Made by a program: the position numbers and the translations under genes | Part shown: positions 7,349-48,079 of the stretch, one piece after another | How the letters are laid out: each line of letters begins with the position of its first letter | Position numbering within the stretch: the stretch's first letter is position 1 | The notes under the pieces: model-generated | Told to the model about the DNA's origin: nothing | The model's database searches: none | The model's input: only the letters and a program-made list of their open reading frames with translations | Assembly: GCF_019900845.1 (NCBI RefSeq) | Contig: NZ_CP074570.1 | Coordinates: 2,418,001-2,482,000 of the forward strand | Source: Paraneptunicella aestuarii | Lineage (GTDB): Bacteria; Pseudomonadota; Gammaproteobacteria; Enterobacterales; Alteromonadaceae | Direction: 5' to 3' | DNA: 64,000 nt

Positions 7349-7398
7349 AACTATTGACTATTGTTGTTACCATGAAAATGATTAAAGGTAACAACAGC

Positions 7399-8130
7399 AT
7401 GCAACTGCTTGACTCAATTTCCTTTGAATGTGCCAGTGTAGAGCCGCAATTTAAAACACCTTCTTTTGAGAATATTGTTGCTCCTGCGTTATATACCCAG
7501 CCTCTGGAAGCGCTGATAGCACAACAAGGTGATATTTCTCGTGCCACTGTCGAAGCCTTTATCAAACAAGGTTTTCAGCAGGTTCATCAGGCTTCTATTC
7601 ATTCCTTTATGCCTTCACTGTTGTATTTAAGAAAGTATGGTTTGATTCAGTCAGCCCTGGGTGTACGAGTATGCTCCGAGAACACATTTCTAGCTCAATA
7701 CTTTGACCAACCTTTAGCGCAAGAGCTTAATCAGTCGGGTTTTCAGGTGGAATTGCAAGATTGTGTCGAAATAGGCAACCTGCGCAGCATTTCCAACACC
7801 TATACGCAGCATCTGTTTTTAATGGCTGTTCTTGCCTTATCGTTGCGCGACAAGTCAGTCATGCTGTTTACCGCGATACCACCGGTAGTCAATATTCTGG
7901 TTAAGCACAATATTCCTTATGTGGAATTAGCGGCCGCGGATGAATCCAGAGTGTCGGGTGGCCCAGATAGCTGGGGAAGTTACTACCAACACAAACCAAT
8001 GGTAATGGCCGTGCGTATTGCCGATGTTATCTCCTGTATTGCTGAATCCAAGCTGCTATCCGCTTTATCGCTAACCTTTGACGGATTAATCCAGCAATTG
8101 GCAGAGCAACTAGAGGATGCTGGTGTATGA
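7399..8130 (+). CDS. Thermostable-hemolysin family protein
   Basis: 243 residues from the ATG at 7399 (AAAGG 10 nt upstream); in-frame ATGs at 7372 and 7378 are possible. It resembles the thermostable hemolysin (delta-VPH) family, whose fold is acetyltransferase-like: SIHSFMPSLLYLRK and a C-terminal helical part. No signal peptide is visible, so a secreted toxin role is doubtful despite the family name. Its stop overlaps the ligase start (ATGA). The surrounding ligase, diiron-oxidase candidate and SDR suggest it may act as an acyl-handling enzyme in a small-molecule pathway (inference). Confidence 0.7.
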   Translation: MQLLDSISFECASVEPQFKTPSFENIVAPALYTQPLEALIAQQGDISRATVEAFIKQGFQQVHQASIHSFMPSLLYLRKYGLIQSALGVRVCSENTFLAQYFDQPLAQELNQSGFQVELQDCVEIGNLRSISNTYTQHLFLMAVLALSLRDKSVMLFTAIPPVVNILVKHNIPYVELAAADESRVSGGPDSWGSYYQHKPMVMAVRIADVISCIAESKLLSALSLTFDGLIQQLAEQLEDAGV

Positions 8131-9605
8131 ACTCCTATTCATTTCCTTACCCAAAGGCGTCTGATTGTAATGCTCATGCCTTGGTATATGGCTCTACTAC
8201 ATTAACGTATTCTGATTTAAAAGAAGCCGTTGCAGAACGCGCTAACTGGTTGCAGGAAAACCAGATAGAGCGAGTGGCCATTGGCATGGATAATCATCTT
8301 GAATGGGTATTATTCGATCTGGCTTGCCTAACCAGCAATGTATGCTGTATTCCCCTGCCCGGTTATTTTACAGAAAGCCAAACCAACCACATTTTGATGG
8401 AAACCGGCACGTCATCAATATTGACGTTGAAACCCGAGCCCATTTTAAATAGAGCACTTTCCTGTGAAACGCCTTTTGATGGTGTATACCTGCAAAATGT
8501 GGAAATAGAACAAGTGGTTCACCTTCCTGAAGGAACACAGAAAATCACCTTTACCTCGGGTTCTACGGGCTCTCCCAAAGGTGTGTGTTTAAGTATTGAA
8601 AACCAGATTAACGTGGCTGAATCACTGAAAACGGTCACTGGATTATCACGCCCGGTATTTTTGAGCCTTCTTCCATTAGCGACTCTGCTTGAAAATGTAG
8701 CCGGTGTTTACGGTACGCTTATGGCTGGAGGAACCGTTGTTCTTGCTAATGAAAACGACAGAGGCTTTTCTGGAAGCAAACTGGTGTCACCCGAATCCAT
8801 GTTGGTATTGTTGAGTAAAACCAGCCCCAATGCCTTAAACCTGGTGCCAGAACTGTTGATGGTATTGCTTAATGCGTGTCAACAAGGATGGAAAGCGCCG
8901 GAGTCCTTACAGTTTATTGCCGTTGGCGGCAGCAAAGTCGATCCGAAACTGCTCACTGCCGCAGCGCAGTTAGGTTTACCGGTGTATCAGGGCTATGGGT
9001 TATCGGAATGCGCATCGGTTGTTGCTATCAATCATATTAATGATAACGACCTAAACAGCGTTGGGCAGATCCTGCCTCACCTGCAAGGTCATTGCCGTAT
9101 TGAAAACGGTGAGCTGGTCGTGAGCAATAATGTGTTCCTGGGCTACATTCATGATCCACAAACCTGGGCTCCTAAAGAGGTTCGAACTGGTGATCTGGCA
9201 TCCCTGGGGAGTGAAAACGAGAATCGCCTTTTTATTGAAGGGCGTAAAAAGAATCTCTTGATTAACTCATTTGGTCGAAACATTTCTCCGGAATGGCCTG
9301 AATCATTGTTACTGGCGACCGGACAGTTTCGACACGTAGTTGTATTTGGTGATGCCAAGCCTTTCTGTACGGCATTATTGGTTCCACTTAACCCTATGTT
9401 GACGGCTAGCGACTTAACGCCAGTGATGGCGGCGGTAAATGCTCAACTTCCTGATTATGCACAAATTCAAAAGTGGTTCATTGCTGACCAACCGCTTAGC
9501 AGTGGCAACGGACTATTAACGGCCAATATGAGGCCAAAACGAAACGCTATTTTTAACTATTTCTCGGCACAAATCGAAGAGCTATACAGCTCCCAACAAG
9601 CGTAA
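8127..9605 (+). CDS. AMP-forming acyl ligase (ANL superfamily)
   Basis: 492 residues with the ANL motifs: P-loop ITFTSGSTGSPKGV, the A5 region QGYGLSECASV, TGDLA, and the hinge GRKKNLLINSFGRNISP. It adenylates a carboxylate, most likely a fatty acid given the LC-acyl-CoA-ligase look, and passes it to CoA or a protein thiol. The usual C-terminal catalytic lysine region is short and ends near ANMRPKRN. It overlaps the gene before it by 4 nt, and the oxidase gene follows within 30 nt. In this operon it would activate the substrate handled by the oxidase and SDR (inference). Confidence 0.85.
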   Translation: MNSYSFPYPKASDCNAHALVYGSTTLTYSDLKEAVAERANWLQENQIERVAIGMDNHLEWVLFDLACLTSNVCCIPLPGYFTESQTNHILMETGTSSILTLKPEPILNRALSCETPFDGVYLQNVEIEQVVHLPEGTQKITFTSGSTGSPKGVCLSIENQINVAESLKTVTGLSRPVFLSLLPLATLLENVAGVYGTLMAGGTVVLANENDRGFSGSKLVSPESMLVLLSKTSPNALNLVPELLMVLLNACQQGWKAPESLQFIAVGGSKVDPKLLTAAAQLGLPVYQGYGLSECASVVAINHINDNDLNSVGQILPHLQGHCRIENGELVVSNNVFLGYIHDPQTWAPKEVRTGDLASLGSENENRLFIEGRKKNLLINSFGRNISPEWPESLLLATGQFRHVVVFGDAKPFCTALLVPLNPMLTASDLTPVMAAVNAQLPDYAQIQKWFIADQPLSSGNGLLTANMRPKRNAIFNYFSAQIEELYSSQQA

Positions 9606-9631
9606 CGCAGTTGGACTATGGAGAACGACAA

Positions 9632-10303
9632 ATGACTTTTTATTCTCAATTAGTAAATGCAACACTGAAAGAAAAAGAATACTTACGTTCATCAAGCATC
9701 GTACAACGTTGCTTTACGGGTGATATTTCTCTGGATGATTACGTGGCATTCCTGCAACAAGCCTATCATCACGTAAAACATACCGTTCCCCTATTAATGG
9801 CAACCGGTTCCAAAATCCCATTTGATAAAGAATGGCTACGTGAAGCCATTGGTGAATACATTGAAGAAGAAACCGGGCATCAGGAATGGATCTTGAACGA
9901 CATTGCAGCCTGCGGTTATGACAAAGAGCAAGTACGTCGCAGTCAACCGGCAATGGCAACCGAGCTGATGGTTTCCTATGCCTATGATTCGATCAATCGC
10001 ATTAGCCCATTGTGTTTCTTCGGCATGGTCTTTGTGCTGGAAGGTACAAGCATTGAGTTAGCTGACGCAGCTGCAAAGAGCATTGGTGACAAGTTAGCAT
10101 TACCGTCGAAAGCCTTTTCTTACCTGCGTTCACATGGTGCATTGGATCAAGAACATATCGTCTTTTTCCAATCCTTGATGGATCGCATTACGGATCCACA
10201 AGAGCAAGCCCTGATCATTCATAGCGCAAAAATGTTCTTCAAACTTTATGGTGATATTTTCCACGGCCTAACGACTGAACACGGCGTTAAATTGGCTGCC
10301 TAG
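9632..10303 (+). CDS. Haem-oxygenase-like diiron oxidase candidate (TenA/UndA fold)
   Basis: 223 residues from the ATG at 9632, with GGAG 8 nt upstream. All-helical, in the TenA / iron-containing redox enzyme superfamily. Potential metal ligands are placed as in haem-oxygenase-like diiron oxidases such as UndA and SznF: E80-x2-H83, E137 and H168-x3-D172-x2-H175; a further ligand from the first core helix may be H46 or H47. A TenA thiaminase would not be expected to keep the HxxxDxxH pattern. The family uses O2 to cleave, hydroxylate or desaturate small substrates, including fatty acids. An AMP ligase before it and an SDR after it suggest an activated fatty acid or amino acid substrate. Confidence 0.75.
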   Translation: MTFYSQLVNATLKEKEYLRSSSIVQRCFTGDISLDDYVAFLQQAYHHVKHTVPLLMATGSKIPFDKEWLREAIGEYIEEETGHQEWILNDIAACGYDKEQVRRSQPAMATELMVSYAYDSINRISPLCFFGMVFVLEGTSIELADAAAKSIGDKLALPSKAFSYLRSHGALDQEHIVFFQSLMDRITDPQEQALIIHSAKMFFKLYGDIFHGLTTEHGVKLAA

Positions 10304-10334
10304 TCACCTGTTACAGAATGAGCGGAGAAACGAA

Positions 10335-11153
10335 ATGAACTGGCAGAACATTAACTGTCTGTTAACTGGAGCCTCAGGAGGCATAGGGCAAGCCATCGCT
10401 TTTGAACTGGCGAGCCTTGGCGTTAACCTGACGCTAACAGGGCGCAATGAAATCAAGTTAAAAGACATGGTGCAGCAGTTATCCCTTGTCTCAGCAGGAA
10501 ATCATCGCTATGTGGTTGCCGATATTGCGCAAGCAGAACAAAGAGAAGCATTGATTCAGAAATTAAAAGGATCAGGTGGCATTAATATGGTGATCAATAA
10601 TGCTGGCGTGTCGAGCTTTGGTGAGTTTGACCAGCAAAAAGCCTCTGACATTCAGCAGCAAATTGAGTTGAATCTGACCATTCCCATGATGTTGATCCAC
10701 GGCTTATTGCCCGTGTTAAAGCAGCAACCAGAAGCCTATATTGTCAATGTGGGTTCCACCTTTGGCAGTATCGGGTTCCCCTGCTTTACCAGCTATTGTG
10801 CCAGCAAGTTTGGGTTAAGAGGATTTACCGAAGCCTTACAGCGAGAATTGGCAGATACCAAAGTCAAAACCCTGTATTTCGCGCCTCGTACCACAACCAC
10901 AAGCATTAACAGCCCAACGGTAGTGGCGATGAATCAGGCATTAGGAAACCATTCCGACACACCTGAACAGGTCGCTCGTAAACTGGTTAATCAACTACAG
11001 AGCGCTCGCGCCCGTGAATTTGTTGGTTGGCCGGAAAAACTGTTTGTTCGGGTTAACGGCTTTTTGCCAAAACTTGTCGACAACGCACTAATGAAAAAAC
11101 TACCTGTTATTAAGAAATTCGCCAATTTAACTACTGTGGAGAACCAATCATGA
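10335..11153 (+). CDS. Short-chain dehydrogenase/reductase
   Basis: 272 residues of classical SDR type: cofactor motif TGASGGIG at 10-17, NNAG at about 88-91, a serine in VGSTFGS, and the catalytic YCASK. The basic residue after the third strand (TGRNEIK) suggests NADPH. It follows the oxidase gene by about 30 nt with an AGCGGAG ribosome site, and its stop overlaps the start of the TPR gene by 4 nt. It would reduce or oxidise a carbonyl/alcohol in the pathway of this operon; the substrate cannot be read from sequence. Confidence 0.88.
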   Translation: MNWQNINCLLTGASGGIGQAIAFELASLGVNLTLTGRNEIKLKDMVQQLSLVSAGNHRYVVADIAQAEQREALIQKLKGSGGINMVINNAGVSSFGEFDQQKASDIQQQIELNLTIPMMLIHGLLPVLKQQPEAYIVNVGSTFGSIGFPCFTSYCASKFGLRGFTEALQRELADTKVKTLYFAPRTTTTSINSPTVVAMNQALGNHSDTPEQVARKLVNQLQSARAREFVGWPEKLFVRVNGFLPKLVDNALMKKLPVIKKFANLTTVENQS

Positions 11154-11815
11154 AACCACTTATCGCTTTAACTTGTGCATTGGCTCTATATGTACCATTA
11201 AGCCAGGCCGACATGCCACAAACACCTCAAGCGACCACTTCAATGTCGACGCTTTTGGATATTCAACATAACTGGGCCAAAGCCAACTATCAGTTACGTG
11301 ACGATGCTCAGGTTGCCGCTTTTGAAGCCTTGCTGAAAGATGCCAAAGCCTTATCTGACAGCGATCCACTTAAAGCTGAAAGCTGGATTTGGTTGGGTAT
11401 CACTCAGTCTACCTTTGCCGGCGTAAAAGGCGGATTAGGTGCCTTGTCACTAGCCGAAGATGCAAAAAAATCATTAGAGAAAGCTCTGGAAATCAACCCG
11501 GATGCGTTACAAGGCTCAGCCTATACAAGTCTGGGGACGCTGTATCATAAAGTTCCGGGCTGGCCGATTGGCTTTGGTAGTGACAAAACCGCGAAAGAAA
11601 TGCTGCAAAAGGCACTAGAGATTAACCCGGAAGGTATTGACCCTAACTATTTCTACGGTGAGTTCTTGTACGACAAACACAAATACAAAGCCGCTAAAAA
11701 ATACTTACTGAAAGCGCAAAATGCCCAAAGCCGTCCAGATCGCCCTGTTGCTGACAGCGGTCGTCAGCAGGAAATTAAGGATTTGCTGGCTAAAATTGAA
11801 CGTAAGCTGGATTAA
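11150..11815 (+). CDS. Exported TPR protein
   Basis: 221 residues with a signal peptide (MKPLIALTCALALYVPLSQA) and at least two TPR-like units (AKKSLEKALEINPDALQGSA and AKEMLQKALEINPEGIDPNY), each with the PDA/PEG turn. It looks like the TatT/TRAP-associated TPR group. It is the last gene before a strong terminator at 11847 and overlaps the SDR gene by 4 nt, so it belongs to the same operon. It would act in the periplasm, perhaps as a lipid- or protein-binding partner of the product (inference). Confidence 0.7.
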   Translation: MKPLIALTCALALYVPLSQADMPQTPQATTSMSTLLDIQHNWAKANYQLRDDAQVAAFEALLKDAKALSDSDPLKAESWIWLGITQSTFAGVKGGLGALSLAEDAKKSLEKALEINPDALQGSAYTSLGTLYHKVPGWPIGFGSDKTAKEMLQKALEINPEGIDPNYFYGEFLYDKHKYKAAKKYLLKAQNAQSRPDRPVADSGRQQEIKDLLAKIERKLD

Positions 11816-11893: not shown

Positions 11894-12976
11894 CTAGCCT
11901 GCCAATGAATCCAAAAGCTTCATCACTTCCTGGCTTGCTTTTTCCATAGCAAGCAGATTACGTATGCCTTCATCCTTATGACCTTGCTGAATTTGCTTAA
12001 TCGCTTCAACGCCTGAGCGGTGAACTTCAGCATGAGGTCTATCCAGGTCTCTATAAGATTTGTTTTGGGCAAAACGCTGGCGACCACCATTGTTGTACCA
12101 TTTTCCTAATCGGCATGAGGTGTGGTCGGCAAATTCTCCGACCGATTTATTGCTCAGCCCATAAACAACGGAATACACATCGGTTTTCCATACAATGTGA
12201 TCCAGTTTAACGGTTTGAATAAAGGTTCTTAAGGAAGAATCCGAAATGGTTCCTTTCATGGAATTACAATAGGACACCATCGAATCATATTGAGAATTTA
12301 GCTGGCTAACGCCAACTGATAAGGTGTCATTGTTACTTTTAAGATCGCCAACGGCGCCAACGGCTTCTTTGGTGGAGCCGATAATACTGGTCACCAAATC
12401 AGACACTTCACTTGCCGATTTATTGGTTTCATTCGCCAATGAGCGCACTTCATCGGCAACCACACTAAAACCTCTACCTGCATCCCCTGCTCTGGCGGCT
12501 TCAATGGCAGCGTTTAATGCTAACAAGTTGGTTTGATCTGAAATGCTGGTGATGGTGGTTACGAAGGTGTTGATACTATCAGCAGTATTGGAAAGTCCGG
12601 AAATACTGGTAGTCATCCCTTCCATTTTGGTGCTCATGCCATTCATGGAAGACACAATTTCATTGAGAGAGCGAGAGGAAACGTCGAAAAGTTCATTTAT
12701 AGAGGAAATGGCTTCACTTTCTTTACTGATGCGCTCATAAGCATCCAATACCGTTTGCCTGACCCCTTCAACCTGGTTGAGAGAATCAATCATGCACTGT
12801 ACCAGCATATTATCGTAAGTTTTATCGACCGATTGTTCTTGTAACAATAATTCCAGTTTCAGTTCTTCGTTCTCGGCTTTAACACTTTCAAGCTCATTTT
12901 CCAGTTCAATAATACGTTGATTTAGACGCTGATTATCTGACTCTGAACCTTTGTATTTTGAGGATAGTACAAACAT
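11894..12976 (-). CDS. Soluble methyl-accepting chemotaxis protein with CZB domain
   Basis: 360 residues without membrane spans. Residues 5-60 are a predicted coiled coil. The signalling domain follows, with the receptor hairpin tip around [22 protein letters not shown]-terminal CZB (chemoreceptor zinc-binding) domain shows its pattern HIVWK, CRLGKWY, then two further His (RPHAEVH). CZB domains bind zinc and respond to hypochlorous acid or zinc in characterised proteins. This is a cytoplasmic receptor. It is transcribed alone and converges on the TPR operon at a shared terminator. Confidence 0.9.
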
Positions 12977-13120: not shown

Positions 13121-16100
13121 TCAGGTTTCAGATTTATTTTCGCTTATTGCTTTTGAGCAGGAATGCAGATCTATTTTTCCATTAGGTAAGGTGGGTATCG
13201 TCTTAAAAATATAGATCTGCTCAGGAATCATAAAACTCGGCAAACGAGCGGCTAGCTCCCGCCTTACATGCTCTTCCACCAATATTGTATCGGCTGAATC
13301 TGATGGCTGAATGTAAGCAACAACAAATCCTTCCGATTCAGTAGCCGAATCAAGCTTCACCACTTTGGCAATTTGCACAATGGATAATTTCATTAAATGA
13401 GCTTCTATTTCATCCAGCTCTAATCTATGCCCATTAATTTTTACTTGATGATCGCTGCGACCACAAAATTCTATATTGCCATTTCGTCGTCTGGCTAAAT
13501 CCCCCGTGCGATACATGCGCTCAAATCCCGCGCTTTGGGAAAAGGGATTGGCAATAAAGCAACGGTCTGTCATCGCTGGTAAGTTTTGATATTCCCGGGC
13601 TAAACAGCAACCTGACACATACACCTCACCAATAACGCCATCAGGTAATAATTTTAAATTCTGATCCAGAATATAAAGCTGGATATTGGCAATCGGTGTT
13701 CCAATAGGCACAACCGCTCTGTCTGGTACAGAATGGCTAGCCTGGAGAGAGTTTCCAAGGACTAATCGTTGAGGAATTGGGTCGTTTTCTATGATTTCTG
13801 ACGCAATCTGAAGTTGATCGTTCAATACCGCTAATAAATCCTCATATCGAGTCAGTGGATTAATAGGCACAACGCGAAAAACGGTAATCTTCTCTTCGCC
13901 ATAGCGCTTATGCAATATACGCGTTTTCGAGACAAAGGTTTCACCACGCAAGAATTGTTGTGTCTGGATGTCATCTGTCGCAGCACTAATCTGAGCATTT
14001 TCGGAGGCAGAATAAGGCTTCTTGTTCTGATTATCCTCAATACTGGTCGCTGTATTTCGTAATGCTTTAGGAATATAACGGTAGTTAATAATGTTTAAAT
14101 CGTTCTCGCCGACCAGTTCAAAAGCGTCTGATTGCTCGATCAATTCACGAAAATAAGCCGTCTTTTCCATGCTCTGACTCAACATCCAGGAATAGCCTTG
14201 GTGTGAGAACAGGTGCAATGAGGCGTGAAGCATCAAGGAAGCGGCGGGTCGAGAACCTTCCAACGTAAATTGGCCTAAATCAAAACTACCTGATGCGGCC
14301 TGATAATCGGCATGAGTGGTAACAGCAAAGACACTTTGCGGATCCTTAAACAAACACAAGCTAATCCCTTGAGCCAGATACAGCTGCTTATGAGCACAGA
14401 AGGTAATGGTGTCGGCGTGCTCAATGCCATTGAGCTTAAATCGATAATCGTCTGAAAAAACAAATGCCCCTCCCCAAGCAGCATCAACATGGAAATGAAT
14501 ATCGTGCTGTTGGGCGATTTGAGCCATTTCGGGTAGAGGATCGATCGTGCCGGTTTCGGTTGCACCCGCAATACCGATGATGGCGATAATAAACTGTTTA
14601 TTCTCTCTGCATTGCTGGATCTGCGCTTGTAGCTCGGCGGTTTTAATGCGTTGCTGCTCATCCTGCTCGATCAGGATCAGGTTGTTCTCGCCCAAGCCTA
14701 ACAAACCAACGGTTTTCTTAATGGAATAATGGGCTAATCGCGATACAAGAATAACCGCTTTCTTATAACCCAAAGACAGCAACGCTTCGTTTGCGCCAAT
14801 TTGCTGTAATTGAGCTTTATTGATGCCTTGCGCGATAAGCCCTTTATTGCGAGCACAATACAGCGCAGTGATATTGGCAAGTGAGCCTCCGCTGGTCACA
14901 ATACCAAACATATTGTGAGGATCCTGAACTCGCTCACGATAATAAGCATTCTCATCATTGAAGAATAATTTGTGCAGCATTGCCATCACTTGTCGTTCCA
15001 TCAAGGTCAGGCTTTTTGAGGTTTCGACTTTAACCACATTCTGGTTAGCCTGGCTTATAAAGCGGCTAAATTCGGGAATGAAATTAGGAAGCGCCGATGT
15101 CATGTGACCAATGTATTTCTTGGATGAAACATTGATCATATAAGGAAACAGATCTTGCTGTAACTGTTGAAAATAGGCTTCAAAATCTTTGGGATGCGCC
15201 GGCAATTCAACCTGTGAAAATTTCTCTTTCAGCTCTTCCAAAGGCACATTAGGTTGAGTGATCTTCTCTCCCTGATAATGGGACAATTCGGTTTTGCCTA
15301 GTTGAGAATAAGCATTTTTAAACGTTCTGGCTCCGGGAATCGAATCCTGTTCTTGCTGAAAGTATTTCAGCACTCCCATGTATTCCGGGTACTGCGCGTG
15401 GTACAGCGTTACGTCAGCACCGGTCTCAGTGGAGCCATAAACATTGACCAACTCCACTTTACCCTGAAAATACCAATGAAATTCATCAACTAAATGCTGA
15501 AACAAAGGCTCTCCACTACTAAAAACCATCTTCAATGCACGTAAGAAATGATTATTCTCGTGGGCAAGCATTGCCTGTAGTTGTGAAGGTATTAATGTAA
15601 TGCGTTGAATAGAATAAGAACGGATCGCCTCAAGTAATGGAGATGCTCTATTCTCTTTTGAATCCAGCATAACCAAAGTGCTACCAGAAACCAGAGGTTG
15701 TAACACTTCGGCAATATGATCGATGAAGCTAATGCTGGTTTTACCGGCAAATACAGTATGTTTATCCGCAGGGAATTGTTCTTGAAACCACATCAAGCGA
15801 TTAATAATACTGTCGTGAGTTCCGACAACGCCTTTAGGTACACCTGTTGAACCGGATGTGTACATTACATACGCTGGTAAACCGGAAGCATTCGCGATAG
15901 CCGGAAGCTGCGAAGGCATACCATCTAAATTGGAAATTATTGAGGGTGAATCCAGGGTAATGAAAGAAACATCATGGGACTTAAATACATTGCGAGTTGA
16001 TTGCTCATTAATGACGTATTTCAGCGCGGAGTCACCCACCATAAAATCCAAGCGTTGTGATGGATACTCAGGATCCAGAGGCACATATTGAGCCCCGCAT

Positions 16101-17665
16101 TTGAATATCGCCAGCATCGCAATAAGGACGTTAGGGCTATATTGCAAGCACACTCCAACGCGATCCGATTTCCCTGAACCTTTATCAGCATCTAGTCCAA
16201 CGCCCATAGAAAGCAAATAATTAGCGAGCCGGTTAGCCTGTTCGTTCAAATCCCGATAGCTAAGCCGGATAACATCACCATTATTATCACGCCAAATTAC
16301 AGCATCATTGTTCGCGTAACGTTGAGCTATTTTGTCTATCTGGGCGAGCAATTCATTTTCAGCACTAAAATACTCGGGTTTCTCGAACATGTTATTGGTT
16401 AATAACGACTGGCGATGCTCTTCTGAAAGCAAGGAATAACAGAATATATCGTTGCCCGGATTACGAATAGTTTGTAGCAACAATTCGCTGAATGAATTGC
16501 AAAACTGATGAATGGTTTTCAGATTAAACAAATTGGCATCATAGCCCCAGTGCCATGAGTATTCTGTTTTACTCTCTGCTTTTTGCTTCGATTCGTTCTT
16601 GGCGTTGTCCTTCTCTGTGTTGGTGCTCTCATTTTTAGCGCGTATTGTCGCAGACAGGTTTAATTCCAACTCCACATTATGAAAATGCGTCGAAATATCA
16701 TTAAAAGTTTCGAAATCACTCGAAAAGTCAAAATTTCCAATTTGATTAATTACTGAGATGTTCAAAGAACAAGCTTTATGACCACTGTTCAGTAATGAAT
16801 TTGGGGTTAATTCATGCTCAAATAGCGCTTCTTTCAACTGCTTTTGAACTTGAGCAAGCAATGCTAAATAAGAAGAACTATCTTCTGCGTTCACACATAA
16901 AAAGAAGGGCTGACTATTTGAAGAATTGGAAATAGTCACTTTAAGTAATGCCTGCCGACGCAGAGTGTATCTGATTAGCCAAACTGAAAAAGTGGTGAGA
17001 ACATGCACAACATCTGAAAATGGCTCAAGTGATAGAGGCAATAACGTTCGTTCTTGTGCTTTTGCTTTTAATTCTGGTTTTAGCTCAGAAAGTGCGACAC
17101 TTAGCTCGTCAGGAAAATCAGGCACGGTTTCAAGCATAAATGACTTTTGTTTTGCCTGCTTTGGCTTGTCGTAGGGTAAGCCGACATTTGTGGTTAAGAA
17201 TCGCTTGATAAACGCTTCAAGATTACCTTGCTTTCTACGATTACGTTCCAACCAGTAACGGTTAATGCTTGATATATCTTCGCTATAGGGCAACATGATG
17301 GGAAAACAGCATTCAGGATATTGGCTTTGCAACCTGGTTTCCAACTCCCAAACAAGGTTCGTCAATTCCGTTGATCCTGAAGAAGAATATTGATTCCTGT
17401 TTATTTCTTGTGCTTCCAATGCTGGAGAAATTAACAGCAAAATCTCCCCTTGAGCTGTGCCTTCTACCACTTCAACGGCTTGAACTGAGTCTATAAATGG
17501 TTCGGAACTTAAAAGCTGAATCAATTCATCTACAGAGATGCCCTGCTCCTTCATCGCATTATTCATGCGGCAGTGCGAAATAATAAAATCGCTGGATATA
17601 GGTTTTAAAGATGCAATGACGGAAGAACGAGGCGATGACTTCGCCTCAATTTGCTTGTTTGACAT
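13121..17665 (-). CDS. NRPS-like adenylation domain interrupted by a PanP-like aspartate decarboxylase
   Basis: 1514 residues. 1-215 unassigned; 215-420 resembles the C-terminal lobe of a condensation domain, without HHxxxDG. 430-757 is the adenylation core, with P-loop YTSGSTGVPKG near 602-612 and YGSTETG at 743-749. 758-1300 is a complete group II PLP decarboxylase most like PanP/TIGR03799: IGHMTSALP, HVDAAWGGA at 1059-1067, PLP lysine K1093 in AHKQ, TLEGSRP. 1301-1505 resumes the adenylation domain (YRTGDLARR, GRSDHQVKINGHRLEL, LPNGKIDL with K1497). No carrier domain (GGxS) follows. Code residues aligned to PheA 235/236/301/330/331 are I648, D649, S716, A750, D751, beta-alanine-like. One chain may therefore make beta-alanine from aspartate and adenylate it. 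Single-gene unit; a terminator separates it from the ligase gene upstream. Confidence 0.85.
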   Translation of the reverse strand: MSNKQIEAKSSPRSSVIASLKPISSDFIISHCRMNNAMKEQGISVDELIQLLSSEPFIDSVQAVEVVEGTAQGEILLLISPALEAQEINRNQYSSSGSTELTNLVWELETRLQSQYPECCFPIMLPYSEDISSINRYWLERNRRKQGNLEAFIKRFLTTNVGLPYDKPKQAKQKSFMLETVPDFPDELSVALSELKPELKAKAQERTLLPLSLEPFSDVVHVLTTFSVWLIRYTLRRQALLKVTISNSSNSQPFFLCVNAEDSSSYLALLAQVQKQLKEALFEHELTPNSLLNSGHKACSLNISVINQIGNFDFSSDFETFNDISTHFHNVELELNLSATIRAKNESTNTEKDNAKNESKQKAESKTEYSWHWGYDANLFNLKTIHQFCNSFSELLLQTIRNPGNDIFCYSLLSEEHRQSLLTNNMFEKPEYFSAENELLAQIDKIAQRYANNDAVIWRDNNGDVIRLSYRDLNEQANRLANYLLSMGVGLDADKGSGKSDRVGVCLQYSPNVLIAMLAIFKCGAQYVPLDPEYPSQRLDFMVGDSALKYVINEQSTRNVFKSHDVSFITLDSPSIISNLDGMPSQLPAIANASGLPAYVMYTSGSTGVPKGVVGTHDSIINRLMWFQEQFPADKHTVFAGKTSISFIDHIAEVLQPLVSGSTLVMLDSKENRASPLLEAIRSYSIQRITLIPSQLQAMLAHENNHFLRALKMVFSSGEPLFQHLVDEFHWYFQGKVELVNVYGSTETGADVTLYHAQYPEYMGVLKYFQQEQDSIPGARTFKNAYSQLGKTELSHYQGEKITQPNVPLEELKEKFSQVELPAHPKDFEAYFQQLQQDLFPYMINVSSKKYIGHMTSALPNFIPEFSRFISQANQNVVKVETSKSLTLMERQVMAMLHKLFFNDENAYYRERVQDPHNMFGIVTSGGSLANITALYCARNKGLIAQGINKAQLQQIGANEALLSLGYKKAVILVSRLAHYSIKKTVGLLGLGENNLILIEQDEQQRIKTAELQAQIQQCRENKQFIIAIIGIAGATETGTIDPLPEMAQIAQQHDIHFHVDAAWGGAFVFSDDYRFKLNGIEHADTITFCAHKQLYLAQGISLCLFKDPQSVFAVTTHADYQAASGSFDLGQFTLEGSRPAASLMLHASLHLFSHQGYSWMLSQSMEKTAYFRELIEQSDAFELVGENDLNIINYRYIPKALRNTATSIEDNQNKKPYSASENAQISAATDDIQTQQFLRGETFVSKTRILHKRYGEEKITVFRVVPINPLTRYEDLLAVLNDQLQIASEIIENDPIPQRLVLGNSLQASHSVPDRAVVPIGTPIANIQLYILDQNLKLLPDGVIGEVYVSGCCLAREYQNLPAMTDRCFIANPFSQSAGFERMYRTGDLARRRNGNIEFCGRSDHQVKINGHRLELDEIEAHLMKLSIVQIAKVVKLDSATESEGFVVAYIQPSDSADTILVEEHVRRELAARLPSFMIPEQIYIFKTIPTLPNGKIDLHSCSKAISENKSET

Positions 17666-17888: not shown

Positions 17889-19535
17889 TTATTGCCAAAT
17901 GACCTGCCCTGGTTTTACCTTTTGAGCTTCATCCAGGTACTGCTTTTCAACTACATGTCTTTTCACTTTTAGCGTTGGGGTCAATTCACCACTTTCTGTT
18001 GTCCAGTTTGTATTGGTCACAATGATGCCACCTACTTTTTCATGGGACTCCAGCTTTTCATTAATCTGGTGCATAGTATTCGCTAAACTTTCCTGCAACA
18101 CTTCTCTGGCAACGCCATCAGCATGAGAGCTCAAGTTTGCAATTAAAATAGGCTGAACCAAATGAGTTCCCATCAGGCACATCTGTTCGATATATTCATT
18201 TTCGGCAAACTCAGATTCGATAGGAATTGGCGCAACGTACTTGCCCTTTTCAGTTTTGAAGATATCTTTCTTACGACCAACGATAGAAACATAACCATCT
18301 TCCATTTTCCCTAGATCGCCAGTATGAAAGAAACCGTCAGAACGTAGTATTTCTCGACTTTTTTCTTCATCCTTAAAATATCCCATCATGGCAGACGTCG
18401 ACTTCAACAAGATTTCATCGTCATCGGCGATCTTGATATCAACCTCAAATCCTGGCTGCGAAATAGTGCCGAATCTCACTTCGGTATTTGGTCCTGGCAA
18501 GCAGCCACAAGCGAAGGTCTCGGTCATGCCCCATCCTTCCGCGATATGGATATCCAGCTTTTTATACCATTGCAACAGTTTCTCAGACAAAGGCGCAGAA
18601 CCACTTAAAAACACTCTGGCACTGCTTAGCCCCATCTGCTTCTTGATCTTGTTTTTAACAATGCCGCTCACTACTGGAATTTTCAGTAATAGCTGTAACT
18701 TTCTATTGGGAAGTTTGTGCAAAATCTTCTTTTGAAACTGAGTCCAAAGTCGGGGAACTGAACCAAAAACCGTAGGATTGGCATAAATGAGGTTGTCTGC
18801 AAACGTCTCAAGTGATTCAACAAAATAGGCATTGAAACCATAATTGATGAAAACTGAACACACATAATTTCGCTCGGTACAGTGTGACATAGGCAAGTAA
18901 GACAAAATGCGATCCTGTGGTGTCGCTTGCATACTTGCCCCAGTGTTTTTCCCTGAACGCACAAAGCTGTCGTAGCTATGCATGGCTCCCTTGGGGTCTC
19001 CCGTACTACCAGAAGTATAGAGAATGGTCATTAAATCAGAGCCTTCAACTTCTGGCACATCATAATCAGGCTCATATTCATCCATAATATCCTGCCATTG
19101 AAACTGAGCTGGCATTGTAGGATATGGCATAGAAACTCTAGGGATGTCTTGCGGAATAGCTTGCTCGACCGACTTCCAGTCATCCAGCTTACCCACGACA
19201 ACAAACTTGCATTCCGCATGTTGCAGGATATAAGAAATGGTTTCGGCATTTGCAGTAGGATATATAGGAATACTGACATACCCGCCTAACATCAAGGCAA
19301 GGTCGGCAATAATCCATTCAGCACAGTTTTTTGACAAAATAGCAACGGTGTCGCCTTTATTAAGCCCTTGGCGTTTTAAGAAAGCGAATAGTCGATGCGC
19401 ATTGTCAGATATTTGTTTCCAGTTGTAAGTTTTATATTGCCCGTTAACAGGTTGATGCAGTACGGCTCTATCACCATCGTTCTCGACCCAATATGCCAGC
19501 TTGTCTTTCGGTAGAGGGATATGCGTTGTATTCAT
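17889..19535 (-). CDS. Long-chain fatty acid-CoA ligase (AMP-forming)
   Basis: 548 residues from the ATG at 19535, chosen because GAGG lies 8 nt upstream; a start at 19559 would add 8 residues. ANL motifs are complete: TILYTSGSTGDPKGAMHS, EGWGMTETFACG, FFHTGDLGKMEDGYVSIVGRKKDI. The group of long ligases with a tall N-domain and FKTEKGKYVAP corresponds to long-chain acyl-CoA synthetases. It activates long-chain fatty acids with ATP and CoA at the cytoplasmic membrane face. It is upstream of the NRPS-PanP gene on the same strand but separated by a terminator, so shared function is only a possibility. Confidence 0.85.
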   Translation of the reverse strand: MNTTHIPLPKDKLAYWVENDGDRAVLHQPVNGQYKTYNWKQISDNAHRLFAFLKRQGLNKGDTVAILSKNCAEWIIADLALMLGGYVSIPIYPTANAETISYILQHAECKFVVVGKLDDWKSVEQAIPQDIPRVSMPYPTMPAQFQWQDIMDEYEPDYDVPEVEGSDLMTILYTSGSTGDPKGAMHSYDSFVRSGKNTGASMQATPQDRILSYLPMSHCTERNYVCSVFINYGFNAYFVESLETFADNLIYANPTVFGSVPRLWTQFQKKILHKLPNRKLQLLLKIPVVSGIVKNKIKKQMGLSSARVFLSGSAPLSEKLLQWYKKLDIHIAEGWGMTETFACGCLPGPNTEVRFGTISQPGFEVDIKIADDDEILLKSTSAMMGYFKDEEKSREILRSDGFFHTGDLGKMEDGYVSIVGRKKDIFKTEKGKYVAPIPIESEFAENEYIEQMCLMGTHLVQPILIANLSSHADGVAREVLQESLANTMHQINEKLESHEKVGGIIVTNTNWTTESGELTPTLKVKRHVVEKQYLDEAQKVKPGQVIWQ

Positions 19536-19593
19536 TATTATTTCCTCGGTATAGGGCACGTTTCAGGTAGCTGTTCTATTGTTTTTTACTGCT

Positions 19594-23833: not shown

Positions 23834-23876
23834 TAATAATAGTCTTTCATCTAACAACTATATGAGAGTACATATA

Positions 23877-25463
23877 ATGAAAAAATTAAATAACAAGTTT
23901 GTAGGAATAGGTGTTTCAGCGTTGTCATTAATTGCTTCTGGCGTTATGGCAGCAGGTCTTAACCATGTAGGCACTACTGAAAGTGCGGCATCATTAAAAC
24001 TTGCCGGCACTAATGGGCAAGGCGCACAAGTTGAGATACAAGGTCGTTATATCATTGTATATAAACCTGAAGTATCCAAATTCACTGACAATGCTCAGTC
24101 TCGCACTGCTCAAGTCAATGCGATTGAAGCTGCCGGTGGTAAATTCATTAGCGCAATTAAAGGCCAACGCATGGCTGTCGCTAATCTGGATAAAATGGCA
24201 TACAACAAGCTATTAAAAGACGAAAGCATTGAATCAATCTCTCTTGATGCCAAGCGCTACTTAATGGCTCAAAGCACACCATTTGGTATTCCAATGGTGC
24301 AAGCTGACCTGTTAAACCAACCTAATAAAACCGCACGTAAAGTGTGTATTATTGATACGGGTTATTCTTATGGTCACGAAGATTTACCAACCGACGTAAC
24401 GGGCGTAGCGAATAGCAGCCAGGTAGGTAGCTGGAACAACGACGGTCACGGCCACGGTTCTCACGTTGCTGGTACTATTGCTGGATTAGACAACACTGTA
24501 GGCGTTGTGGGCGTATACCCAGATGTTGATTTGCACATCGTTAAAATCTTCAACGATCAGGGTAGCTGGACTCAATCTTCAGACCTGATCGTGGGTATGC
24601 AACAGTGTGCTGATGCTGGCGCGAACGTTATCAGCATGAGTTTGGGTGGTGGCGCTTCTTCTGCCGCTGAAGAAAATGCCGTTAATGGTTTCGTAAGCCA
24701 AGGTATTTTACTGATTGCTGCTGCGGGTAACGATGGTAACAGCAGTATGTCTTACCCTGCATCTTATGACGGCATCATGTCTGTTGCTGCGGTAGACTCT
24801 TCTTCTAATGTTGCGTCTTTCTCTCAGTACAACAGCCAGGTTGAAATTGCAGCACCAGGTGTTGCTGTAAACTCAACTTTGCCTGGTAATACTTATGCAG
24901 CATGGAGCGGTACTTCCATGGCAACGCCTCACGTTTCAGGTGTCGCAGCATTGGTATGGTCGTTCTATCAACAATGTTCTAACGAGCAAATTCGTGAAGC
25001 ATTACAAGCAACTGCACAAGATCGCGGCGCGGCAGGTAAAGACAACTTCTATGGTTGGGGTATCGTTAAAGCCAAAGACGCTTATGATTACCTGAATACT
25101 TGGGGTTGTGCTGGTGATCCTAACTTCCCACCAACTGGTGGTGGCGGTGGCGGTGGCGTTGATCCCGTATCTGGTTCTTTAAGCAACCTATCTGGAAACA
25201 GAGGCGCATGGGATCACTACACTTGGGATATCCCAGCTGGTGTTGCTGTGATGACAGTATCTATCTCTGGCGGTACGGGTGATGCCGACTTGTACACAAG
25301 ATTCGGAGCAACTCCTACCAGTACAGTATATGATTGCCGTCCATACCTGGCTGGTAACAACGAGACTTGTACTCACAGTAGCCCACAAGCCGGTACATGG
25401 TATATCAGTCTACACGCTTACCAGAAGTACAGCGGCGTAACCATGAATTACAGCTACGAGTAA
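23877..25463 (+). CDS. Secreted subtilisin-like serine protease with PPC domain (copy 1)
   Basis: 528 residues from the ATG at 23877. A signal peptide ends near GVMAAG. An inhibitor-type propeptide (QGRYIIVYKPE onward) follows, then the S8 catalytic domain: Asp near 160 (VCIIDTGYS), His near 192 (GHGHGSHVAGT) and Ser near 345 (SGTSMATPHVSG). A Gly-rich linker (PPTGGGGGGG) leads to a C-terminal PPC domain of about 95 residues with paired cysteines, usually removed or used for substrate binding after secretion. The triad and oxyanion Asn (AAAGNDGNS) are present, so an active extracellular protease is expected. A close paralogue follows 515 bp downstream. Confidence 0.93.
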   Translation: MKKLNNKFVGIGVSALSLIASGVMAAGLNHVGTTESAASLKLAGTNGQGAQVEIQGRYIIVYKPEVSKFTDNAQSRTAQVNAIEAAGGKFISAIKGQRMAVANLDKMAYNKLLKDESIESISLDAKRYLMAQSTPFGIPMVQADLLNQPNKTARKVCIIDTGYSYGHEDLPTDVTGVANSSQVGSWNNDGHGHGSHVAGTIAGLDNTVGVVGVYPDVDLHIVKIFNDQGSWTQSSDLIVGMQQCADAGANVISMSLGGGASSAAEENAVNGFVSQGILLIAAAGNDGNSSMSYPASYDGIMSVAAVDSSSNVASFSQYNSQVEIAAPGVAVNSTLPGNTYAAWSGTSMATPHVSGVAALVWSFYQQCSNEQIREALQATAQDRGAAGKDNFYGWGIVKAKDAYDYLNTWGCAGDPNFPPTGGGGGGGVDPVSGSLSNLSGNRGAWDHYTWDIPAGVAVMTVSISGGTGDADLYTRFGATPTSTVYDCRPYLAGNNETCTHSSPQAGTWYISLHAYQKYSGVTMNYSYE

Positions 25464-25978: not shown

Positions 25979-27559
25979 ATGAAAAACCTAAATACCAAAG
26001 TTGTAGGATTGGGCGTATCTGCTCTTTCTTTAGTTGCAGCCAGTGTAATGGCCGCAGGTATTGAACATGTAGGAACGTCATACGAAGCCCCTGCCCTTAA
26101 ACTGGTTGGTGCAAACGGCAATGCAAGCGAACAGAAGCAATACATCGTTGTATTTAAAGAAGGTGCTCAAAACCTTGCTAACGAAGGCGAGTCTCGCACT
26201 GGTCAACTAAACTCTATCAGCGCTGCTGGCGGTAAGTTCATTAACTCTATCCGTGGTCAACGTATGGCTGTTGCCAAGCTTGACAAAAAGGCTTACAACG
26301 CGCTGATTAACGACAGAAATGTTGAAACTATCTCTGAAGACCCTAAGCGTTACCTGATGGCTCAAACAGCACCATTCGGTATTGCGATGGTTCAAGCTGA
26401 CCAACTGTCTCAGCCTAACAAAACTGCACGTAAAGTATGTATCATTGATACTGGTTATTCTTTGGGCCATGAAGACTTGCCTACTGATGTAACGGGTCAG
26501 GCAAACAACAGTCAGGTTGGTAGCTGGAACAACGACGGTCATGGTCACGGTTCTCACGTTGCGGGTACTATCGCTGGTTTAGATAACACTGTAGGTGTTG
26601 TGGGCGTATATCCTGATGCAGACCTGCATATCGTTAAAATCTTTAACGATTCTGGTAGCTGGACTTCAGCATCTGACCTGATCACTGGTATGCAACAGTG
26701 TGCGGACGCTGGCGCAAACGTAATCAGCATGAGCTTGGGTGGTGGCGCAGCTTCTACTGCAGAAGAAACTGCGGTAAATAATCTGGTTAGCCAAGGCATC
26801 CTATTGATCGCAGCTGCGGGTAACGATGGTAACAGCACCATGTCTTACCCAGCATCTTACGACGGCATCATGTCTGTTGCTGCGGTAGACTCTTCTTCAA
26901 ATGTTGCGTCTTTCTCTCAATACAACAGCCAAGTTGAAATTGCAGCTCCTGGTGTAGCGGTTAACTCAACTTTGCCTGGTAATACTTATGCAGCATGGAG
27001 CGGTACTTCCATGGCAACGCCTCACGTTTCTGGTGTTGCAGCATTGGTTTGGTCTTTCTTCCAACAATGTACTAACGAGCAAATCCGTGAAGCATTGCAA
27101 GCAACTGCACAAGATCGTGGCGCGTCTGGTAAAGACAACTTCTACGGCTGGGGTATTGTAAAAGCGCAAGACGCTTACGATTACCTGAACACTTGGGGCT
27201 GTGACGGCGATCCTGCATTCCCACCAACGGGGGGCGGCGGTGGCGGCGGTACTGTTGATCCAGTATCTGGCACCTTGACTAAACTAAGCGGCAGAACTGG
27301 TGCTTGGGACAACTATACATTAGACGTTCCAGATGGCGCAGCAGTCCTGAATGTAAACATTTCAGGTGGTTCTGGTGATGCAGACCTATACGTCAAGTAT
27401 GGTTCTCAACCTACTTCCAGCAACTATGACTGCCGTCCTTACCTGACTGGCAACAACGAATCTTGTACTTTTGCAAGCCCAGCAGCTGGCACTTATCATG
27501 TTAGCTTGTACGCTTACGCAAGATACAGAAACGTGACTATGAACTACAGCTACGAGTAA
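25979..27559 (+). CDS. Secreted subtilisin-like serine protease with PPC domain (copy 2)
   Basis: 526 residues with the same layout as copy 1: signal peptide (ends near SVMAAG), propeptide (KQYIVVFKEG), S8 domain with triad motifs VCIIDTGYS, GHGHGSHVAGT and SGTSMATPHVSG, Gly-rich linker and PPC domain. The catalytic domains are nearly identical; the propeptides and PPC domains have diverged more. It is preceded by AACGAGAAAC and followed by its own terminator, so the two copies are probably expressed separately. Confidence 0.93.
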   Translation: MKNLNTKVVGLGVSALSLVAASVMAAGIEHVGTSYEAPALKLVGANGNASEQKQYIVVFKEGAQNLANEGESRTGQLNSISAAGGKFINSIRGQRMAVAKLDKKAYNALINDRNVETISEDPKRYLMAQTAPFGIAMVQADQLSQPNKTARKVCIIDTGYSLGHEDLPTDVTGQANNSQVGSWNNDGHGHGSHVAGTIAGLDNTVGVVGVYPDADLHIVKIFNDSGSWTSASDLITGMQQCADAGANVISMSLGGGAASTAEETAVNNLVSQGILLIAAAGNDGNSTMSYPASYDGIMSVAAVDSSSNVASFSQYNSQVEIAAPGVAVNSTLPGNTYAAWSGTSMATPHVSGVAALVWSFFQQCTNEQIREALQATAQDRGASGKDNFYGWGIVKAQDAYDYLNTWGCDGDPAFPPTGGGGGGGTVDPVSGTLTKLSGRTGAWDNYTLDVPDGAAVLNVNISGGSGDADLYVKYGSQPTSSNYDCRPYLTGNNESCTFASPAAGTYHVSLYAYARYRNVTMNYSYE

Positions 27560-27685: not shown

Positions 27686-28366
27686 TTAAACCTGTGAAAA
27701 CTGACGAATTAAATTGTGATAAACATGATGTAAATTGTCGAGTTGCTGGCGATTGGCGTTGCTATCTATTGCCAGACTTTGAATGGTTTGATCCAATTGA
27801 AATAGCGTTTGTCGCATAGATTGGTCTGTCACCAGACTTTGCATCCAGGTAATGGCCGCAATTCTTGTACCTTGAGTCACTGGCGTTACTTTGTGCAGGC
27901 TGCTGGAAGGATACACAATGGCATCTCCCGCCTGACATTTAACTCTATGCTCGCCAAATTCCGTGGCAATGACCAATTCCCCGCCCTGATATTCATCGGG
28001 CTCGCTGAGAAATAGCGTCATCGACATATCGCTGCGGATCACATCCTGACTATTCGGCAACCGCATAATCGCAGCATCAACATGGAAACCATAGGTTTCG
28101 TGCTCACTGTAGCGATTAAAACAAGGCGGAAATATTTTGTGTGGCAAGGCGGCAGACACCAATTTGGGTGTTGTCCCCATTTTGGCAAGGACGCCGTTTG
28201 CCAGTTGTTGTACCTGGGCGTCATTGGCATCTGCCTGACCGTTTTGTTTCACATCGGCGGCCATTCCCATGGCGGTTTGCTTACCGTCGTTCCACGGAAC
28301 CTGCTTAAGTGCAAAGCGATATTGATGCACTTCATCCTTGCTAAAAAATTGCTCAATAATAACCAT
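27686..28366 (-). CDS. piuC: PKHD-type Fe(II)/2-oxoglutarate hydroxylase (PiuC/YbiX)
   Basis: 226 residues. It contains the HxD...H iron triad (FHVDAAIMRL and SSSLHKVTPVTQGTR), with the 2-oxoglutarate-binding Arg in the last motif. It starts MVIIEQFFSKDEV, like YbiX/PiuC. These proteins are typically encoded next to Fiu/PiuA-type catecholate siderophore receptors and are iron-regulated; here the receptor gene is immediately upstream on the same strand. The substrate in this family is unsettled. It is likely co-transcribed with the receptor, although hairpins between them may reduce its expression. Confidence 0.88.
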   Translation of the reverse strand: MVIIEQFFSKDEVHQYRFALKQVPWNDGKQTAMGMAADVKQNGQADANDAQVQQLANGVLAKMGTTPKLVSAALPHKIFPPCFNRYSEHETYGFHVDAAIMRLPNSQDVIRSDMSMTLFLSEPDEYQGGELVIATEFGEHRVKCQAGDAIVYPSSSLHKVTPVTQGTRIAAITWMQSLVTDQSMRQTLFQLDQTIQSLAIDSNANRQQLDNLHHVYHNLIRQFSQV

Positions 28367-28392
28367 AATTCAATATTGCCTCAGAAATAAGA

Positions 28393-28414
28393 TAGGTGCC
28401 CTTTTAGGCACCTA
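28393..28414. terminator. Hairpin between receptor and PiuC genes
   Basis: TAGGTGCC / GGCACCTA with a 6-nt loop and only a weak T tract on the minus strand. A second small hairpin (CTAGAG / CTCTAG) lies at 28439-28454. They may act as partial terminators or 3'-end stabilisers within the operon. Confidence 0.5.
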
Positions 28415-28464
28415 CCGTTGTAATAATGGCTGTCATGACTAGAGCACGCTCTAGTGAAATCTGA

Positions 28465-30792: not shown

Positions 30793-30865
30793 GTGTGTAC
30801 TCCGATTGCAGTATGATGAAAATTTCACGTGGAGTATAAGCAGAGATTTATAAAATGTATACACA

Positions 30866-47227: not shown

Positions 47228-48079
47228 ATGACGTTAGCACCTTCGGCCATGTACAACAATAGAGTGATTCTTCACCGTTTTGAAGAATCGCTGGCCTATT
47301 GGTGCGAGCTAAAACAAAAACTGCAAGAACATGCAAAATCAGGTACGCAATTGGGTGACAATAAGCAAACCCAAATTACAGATGTCCCTTTATATACTCA
47401 CTCATTATTGATGGAACATTTCACCCATCAGGAAAATGAAGTGAAAAGTATTTCATCCAGCGCTCAATTCCATCTATACAAGCAAGCTCAATACGCCATT
47501 GTGGCGTTAATTGATGATCAACTGCTGAAAAATCCGCCCTGGAAAGATGATTCATGGTTGAATTATTTATTGGAGAATAAACTGTTTTATAGCCGCATTG
47601 CCGGACAACGACTAATTGGTGAAATAGAAAAGCTGGTTGACGTTGATGCCACTCAAAAACAAATAACAGCCCAAACCAAACAGCTGGCTTATATATACCT
47701 GAGTGTGTTGTGGCAAGGCTTTAAAGGTAAATTATTCAACAAGGAAGAACGTCTGAAAGAACTACAGTCTTCTTTGATTCAATTAACCGAATACACACCT
47801 GTTAACCTCAACGCAGATCGCTTATTAGAACAGCCATATAACTTTAATAGCGAAGAAGAAGAGGAAGAAGCAGAGAACCGCCGTTTAGCACCGATATCCC
47901 GATGGCACAGAGTGGTATTATTTGGCATCGCTTTATATGCCATTGTTAGTACAGGCATATGGTACGGCTTTACCTGGGATCTTAAAAATACGCTTGAGAA
48001 TATCACTCATTCCGACAGCAAAGCGGTGAAAAAAGAAAACAGCCCTGCTGAACAGAATAAAAACAAGGAGGTTAAATAA
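47228..48079 (+). CDS. tssL: T6SS inner-membrane protein TssL (DotU-like)
   Basis: 283 residues. The cytoplasmic hook domain has AQYAIVALIDDQLLKNPPWK and the conserved KLFYSRIAGQRLIGEIEKL. A single C-terminal span at about 229-250 (VVLFGIALYAIVSTGIWYGF) is followed by a short periplasmic tail. There is no peptidoglycan-binding OmpA extension. An acidic run (SEEEEEEAEN) precedes the span. The stop overlaps the tssM start (TAATG). Confidence 0.88.
   Translation: MTLAPSAMYNNRVILHRFEESLAYWCELKQKLQEHAKSGTQLGDNKQTQITDVPLYTHSLLMEHFTHQENEVKSISSSAQFHLYKQAQYAIVALIDDQLLKNPPWKDDSWLNYLLENKLFYSRIAGQRLIGEIEKLVDVDATQKQITAQTKQLAYIYLSVLWQGFKGKLFNKEERLKELQSSLIQLTEYTPVNLNADRLLEQPYNFNSEEEEEEAENRRLAPISRWHRVVLFGIALYAIVSTGIWYGFTWDLKNTLENITHSDSKAVKKENSPAEQNKNKEVK

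Follow-up and report, generated by a model that had tools for sequence, protein, structure and literature searches.

A PanP-like decarboxylase nested in an adenylation domain of Paraneptunicella aestuarii and its probable role in making and activating β-alanine

What does a decarboxylase do inside an adenylation domain, and where would its product go? The question is raised by a gene of the gammaproteobacterium Paraneptunicella aestuarii, found in a window of 64,000 nucleotides (the whole stretch of DNA that was analysed, positions 2418001-2482000 of a single-contig genome of 4.9 Mb). The gene occupies positions 13121..17665 of the window on the minus strand, as do all of its parts given below, and encodes 1514 residues in one open reading frame (ORF) from ATG to stop. 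In this chain, a decarboxylase of the pyridoxal 5'-phosphate (PLP) type that resembles PanP interrupts an adenylation (A) domain. Our best explanation, which we consider probable as a whole, is that the chain is an apparently intact enzyme with two activities, derived from a nonribosomal peptide synthetase (NRPS), that would convert aspartate to β-alanine and β-alanine to its adenylate, and may at least partly feed pantothenate synthesis.

An adenylation domain interrupted after A5

Domain searches with Pfam and NCBIfam confirm what the sequence-only reading of this locus had proposed, a decarboxylase inserted after the A5 motif in a single frame; its coordinates and its PLP lysine, K1093, were also correct, and it named no strand. 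The first part of the A domain (residues 441-757; 15395..16345), with motifs A3, A4 and A5, is recognized by Pfam AMP-binding (445-755), by TIGR01733 and in the predicted structure, and includes the A5 motif NVYGSTETGAD (residues 741-751; 15413..15445), on which the pocket positions 322, 330 and 331 fall. A linker separates it from the nested decarboxylase (residues ~792-1290; 13796..15292), which is identified by Pfam Pyridoxal_deC, by TIGR03799 and by its fold, and whose predicted PLP-binding lysine, Lys1093 (codon 14387..14389), is Lys in 60 of 60 aligned rows. The remainder of the A domain (residues 1312-1500; 13166..13732) carries A6, A7, A8 and A10 according to the second stretches of NCBIfam matches, motifs and structure, and its catalytic A10 lysine, Lys1497 (codon 13175..13177), is K in 58 of the 60 rows, the other two being gapped. 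The A motifs YTSGSTGVPKG, YGSTE, YRTGD, GRSDHQVKINGHR and PNGKID cover A3, A5, A7, A8 and A10, including the catalytic Lys. TIGR01733 scores 350.5 bits (cut-off 317.4) split over two stretches, and the AMP-binding_C match of Pfam in the C-terminal part lies slightly below its cut-off. By motif positions, the insertion site is between A5 and A6, and Pfam, NCBIfam and the AlphaFold2 model agree on a foreign catalytic domain within an otherwise whole A domain.

The AlphaFold2 model (predicted local distance difference test, pLDDT, 88.4) has both A halves closed around a folded decarboxylase, so that the packing on which the sequence-only reading depended is indeed predicted. The A-domain fold is complete across the insert, 493 model residues superpose on gramicidin synthetase 1 at 2.2 Å, and the insert resembles GADL1 and the Sphaerobacter decarboxylase (4rj0 and 6enz are among the fold matches).

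The chain is not a full condensation-adenylation-thiolation (C-A-T) module, as it has neither a carrier nor a condensation domain with HHxxxDG. It ends 17 residues past K1497, with no PF00550 match and no carrier motif anywhere in it. Upstream of the A domain, the hhalign match extends over the second condensation lobe alone (residues ~145-422; 16400..17233); the lobe bearing HHxxxDG is missing, and no HHxxxD was found across the chain. The missing carrier and the half condensation domain, both pointed out from the sequence alone, are therefore borne out by Pfam, motif and hhalign searches. Residues 1-144 (17234..17665) form an unassigned N-terminal part with a low-confidence model. The likeness of residues 1-160 to a degenerate C-terminal A subdomain is weak and not significant (hhalign E 0.054).

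Predicted reactions and relatives of the chain

For the insert, the best decarboxylase model is that of PanP (TIGR03799, 523.3 bits), with diaminobutyrate decarboxylase at 142 and tyrosine decarboxylase at 115. Both the PLP lysine and the PLP-decarboxylase fold are present, and 140 of 224 PanP-invariant residues are retained, against 68 of 224 in the other decarboxylase of the genome. The insert differs from PanP by a score under the cut-off, by its nesting in an A domain and by a separate place in the decarboxylase tree. L-aspartate is its likely substrate as judged from these features, and we regard aspartate decarboxylation by the chain as quite probable.

Pocket positions of the A domain were assigned on an alignment by gramicidin synthetase numbering. 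The chain reads I-D-A-T-F-S-V-A-D-K, and the consensus over 60 nested rows, chosen by domain lists among the matches of the whole-chain search after their motifs had been inspected and with other nested matches omitted, is V-D-A-T-(F/I)-S-(I/L)-A-D-K, with Asp236 in 59 of 60 rows and Asp331 likewise. A β-alanine code lacks Asp235, has Asp236 and shows A-D at 330-331, as in VDWVISLADK of the bleomycin protein BlmIV; a search of the open-access literature for code strings of this kind found no paper. A motif test gave AD at 330-331 in 163 nested proteins and GD in 5, counts that are biased because the recognition motif itself demands Asp or Gly at 331, the less biased figure being the 59 of 60 from the alignment. 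In the A-domain tree, nested, tandem and uninterrupted AD/GD domains split from 30 other A domains with a branch support of 100. Since the pocket is near-invariant and reads as β-alanine under this code, the sequence supports well our best reading, that the chain would make β-alanine and activate it in place; adenylation of β-alanine by this A domain is likely. The earlier proposal of a machine that decarboxylates an amino acid and activates the product in place thus gains from the nested decarboxylase, the foldable A halves, the A motifs and a pocket fitting β-alanine, but the view that such an insert is without precedent is not supported.

In this mechanism, L-aspartate would be decarboxylated at the Lys1093-PLP of the insert, and the resulting β-alanine would be bound by the surrounding A domain and adenylated with ATP. 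In most relatives, a carrier domain in the same protein would then be loaded. Because the carrier and half of the condensation domain are gone, β-alanine would here leave for pantothenate, or β-alanyl-AMP would be passed to a partner in trans.

The same fusion recurs in many proteins and genomes, as a homology search proposed with the sequence-only reading confirmed. The search with the whole chain returned a family of proteins with a decarboxylase between two A parts, and one started from a Hyella NRPS added more nested proteins, of up to 4723 residues and some with polyketide synthase (PKS) domains. By the motif test, the 326 collected proteins comprise 168 nested, 8 tandem, 107 stand-alone and 11 other forms, plus 32 without decarboxylase; P0079 was removed from the tandem class by eye, leaving 7. 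A carrier motif follows the insert in 105 of the 168 nested proteins and is lacking in 63, some of which are fragments. Nested proteins frequently sit in C-A-T modules and come from several phyla. We also scanned genome contigs for motifs at the best 80 loci, of which 33 were classified; 16 of these 33 are nested and belong, going by their record titles, to Cyanobacteria, Bacteroidota, Gammaproteobacteria, Massilia and a Fibrobacter metagenome-assembled genome (MAG). Elsewhere among the 80 loci, a stand-alone relative occurs close to NRPS A domains, not always of the AD type, in genomes of cyanobacteria, Xenorhabdus and Paenibacillus. All eight members of the chain's own clade lack a carrier domain (P0015 judged by its Pfam list only), and the chain thus represents a carrier-less branch within a family whose members mostly bear a carrier.

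The history of the nesting seems to be complex. A single nested clade in the A-domain tree, as sampled, was rejected (approximately unbiased test, p 0.0004), and stand-alone decarboxylases fall within the nested part of the decarboxylase tree, so that gains, losses or releases of the insert occurred. The A-domain tree was built from 75 of the 167 nested domains, 30 of the 100 other domains and all of the tandem (7) and uninterrupted AD/GD-type (7) domains; the decarboxylase tree holds 161 domains, leaving out fragments below 420 positions and most of the stand-alone P0184-P0238. Both are quick trees to which long-branch warnings apply. Nine stand-alone decarboxylases (rows P0128-P0138, P0149) form a clade inside the nested part, as though an insert had become an independent protein once more. 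The seven tandem proteins (P0083, P0086-P0089, P0093, P0094) likewise join a PanP-like decarboxylase and an A domain of the same pocket type in one chain (SFVDS and AAD, with Trp239 in 6 of 7), but in them the decarboxylase precedes a whole A domain and groups with true PanP in the decarboxylase tree. The tandem fusion apparently represents a second origin of the pairing.

β-Alanine supply and competing explanations

The supply of β-alanine was surveyed in a first set of 59 genomes and in 295 genomes of the family drawn evenly from a larger group, both including the window genome (G000). PanP scores over its cut-off in 33 of 33 other same-family genomes of the first set, and in neither G000 nor its congener G001, the only other genome of the genus examined. 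The family survey finds it in 289 of 295. The six without it, as read from E-values, are G000, G001 and G065 (each 99% complete), G238 (59%), G143 (78%) and G198 (71%); further genomes in the genera of the last four do carry PanP, so that, of the 52 family genera sampled, the window genus alone has no genome in which PanP passes the cut-off. None of the 35 same-family genomes has a PanD match, so PanP is the usual aspartate decarboxylase of the family. In 27 of the 33 other genomes, panP and panC are less than 5 kb apart. The two genomes of the genus have panB and panC, and the order in G000 is folK, panB, panC and an EAL-type gene (folK and EAL named from sequence by eye). The other decarboxylase of G000 reaches 132 bits with PanP and 170 with diaminobutyrate decarboxylase, both well under cut-off. 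With PanP under its cut-off and no PanD match, the nested chain is the only candidate from these two families in the genus. Released β-alanine may feed pantothenate at least in part, because stand-alone PanP and PanD are missing but panB and panC are kept. We propose only tentatively that the chain supplies β-alanine for pantothenate and coenzyme A; equally tentative is the proposal that in this genus a former NRPS module, having lost its carrier and half of its condensation domain, took the place of PanP in providing β-alanine for coenzyme A.

Several observations weigh against the explanation we favour, and we discuss them together with the alternatives from here on. Uracil could yield β-alanine in G000, where a dihydropyrimidinase that passes its cut-off (606.7 bits), PreA (688 bits against a cut-off of 335) and a carbon-nitrogen hydrolase are encoded close to one another. 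G001 has no dihydropyrimidinase over cut-off; among alternative β-alanine routes only this enzyme was sought, in four genomes. That PanP can disappear in the family without a nested gene is seen from G065, which has no match of the nested type (best 5.0e-56) and possesses a dihydropyrimidinase. The dihydropyrimidinase and PreA genes of G000 (L139, genome positions 4636000-4652000) adjoin an omega-aminotransferase and a methylmalonate-semialdehyde dehydrogenase, likely a route from uracil to β-alanine and onward. The picture differs from that of the window genus in the 16 genomes in which nested loci were classified: 11 have PanD and none has PanP over cut-off. The nested domain of many hosts therefore probably contributes to a peptide, and PanD to coenzyme A. 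The 5 genomes with neither are one Massilia isolate and four MAGs of unstated completeness. Massilia sp. CFBP 13721 (L055), which has a nested gene and neither a PanD match nor PanP over cut-off, is a possible second case of PanP replacement.

Among the alternatives, the one that survives best, although we find it unlikely, is that the chain makes and activates β-alanine to load a carrier of an NRPS/PKS line elsewhere in the genome, for a secondary metabolite. The intact A motifs and the carrier motif after the insert in 105 of 168 nested relatives agree with it, as do 126 PP-binding matches in the genome, the nearest of which, about 29 kb away (genome positions 2402109-2402249), belongs to a 4016-residue NRPS frame. 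However, no PP-binding match lies within the window, the scanned neighbours include no carrier, phosphopantetheinyl transferase or NRPS gene and are conserved in the congener, and the clade of the chain is carrier-less in 8 of 8 members.

Somewhat less probable is that only the decarboxylase matters, with the A domain a scaffold or a decaying remnant and selection acting on β-alanine production alone. The missing carrier and the halved condensation domain would fit, as would YRTFD in place of YRTGD in the nearest relatives, P0004-P0006. Between P0001 and P0002, the decarboxylase is 98% identical, the A parts 89 and 92% and the N-terminal part 71%, a ratio of A-part to decarboxylase divergence of 5.5 (11% vs 2%) that is the highest of 16 pairs. 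This ratio and YRTFD together give some indication that adenylation could be less important in this case. Yet it is one pair at 2% divergence, a weak measure, and the other eight carrier-less pairs (1.5-3.5) are like the seven carrier-bearing ones (2.0-3.8); because the two groups (n=9 and n=7) overlap, a general relaxed selection on the A domain is unsupported. The catalytic A residues, moreover, are intact in the chain.

It is improbable that the insert acts on glutamate, cysteine sulfinate, diaminobutyrate or a bound amino acid, with the A domain activating that product or something else. In favour of this reading, the score falls under the curated PanP cut-off (523.3 vs 606.1 bits), which also weighs against our own explanation; the insert has Cys at residue 1090, a position that is Asp in the 13 PanP and 3 tandem proteins used for comparison; and of the 224 PanP-invariant columns, 59 are conserved in no more than 5 of the 26 nested proteins. 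Nevertheless, TIGR03799 is far ahead of the diaminobutyrate model, and the near-invariant pocket has Asp at 236 and none at 235, as in A domains of β-amino acids. Finally, an artefact (a frameshift, an assembly join or a chimeric gene model) is practically negligible and was rejected on the single ORF, the single-contig genome, a metagenome copy 86% identical, and the recurrence of the nested arrangement in the congener and many further copies.

Genomic setting and known systems

The nested gene stands at a stable chromosomal place and in no biosynthetic cluster, since gene order is kept in G001 and PP-binding matches are absent from the window. The shared order is a chemoreceptor with a CZB domain (11894..12976, minus strand; Pfam, 65% identity in the congener synteny), the nested gene, a fatty-acyl-CoA-ligase-like protein (17889..19559, minus strand; Pfam, 70%), DUF2058, a sigma-54 regulator and type VI secretion genes. 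The type VI secretion cluster (31657-52143), with VipA and VipB domains in one ORF (31657-33816) and an IcmF-like gene (48079-52143), is conserved in G001. Two adjacent and very alike subtilase-PPC genes by Pfam (23862-25463 and 25979-27559) are probably a tandem duplication. At 27686-30864, a PKHD-type Fe2+-dependent dioxygenase adjoins a TonB receptor, whose best model is Fiu (catecholate siderophore), under cut-off. A possible operon by Pfam (7354-11815) encodes a thermostable-hemolysin family protein, an AMP-binding ligase, a haem-oxygenase-like iron enzyme, a short-chain dehydrogenase and a TPR protein.

If our explanation is right, an enzyme that makes a substrate is housed inside the enzyme that uses it, at a site distinct from those of reviewed inserts. 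Nesting would offer a sequence-based predictor of β-alanine incorporation and a natural setting in which to ask if the product is channelled. If PanP was in fact replaced, secondary-metabolism machinery would have taken over a step of vitamin B5 synthesis, and an assembly-line tailoring domain would have turned back to a housekeeping enzyme.

Known A-domain inserts, as the accessible parts of two papers describe them, are methyltransferases, oxidases, monooxygenases and reductases, mostly at a8-a9 and sometimes at a2-a3 (PMC11355689, PMC8949500). Like TioS, TioN and KtzH (PMC11355689), the chain keeps its A motifs around an inserted catalytic domain; unlike them, its insert is a decarboxylase, which would act before adenylation and on the free amino acid, and its site is A5-A6. 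The sequence-only reading had called it unlike the interrupted A domains known, which stands for the site and the type of insert but not for novelty, given many homologues and one precedent. In the accessible parts of PMC8795117, PMC10127204, PMC13324335 and PMC10204066 no decarboxylase insert in an A domain appears, and in the open-access literature, as far as accessible, only PMC3870968 mentions one. That 2013 paper describes JamL of the jamaicamide pathway in Lyngbya majuscula, a PKS/NRPS subunit with a Pyridoxal_deC domain embedded in its A domain, the function of which was not clarified. Compared by description, JamL shares the embedded decarboxylase with our chain, but its insert is described as glutamate-decarboxylase-like (PMC3870968), whereas that of the P. 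aestuarii chain is PanP-like, in a protein that is carrier-less and stands outside any biosynthetic cluster.

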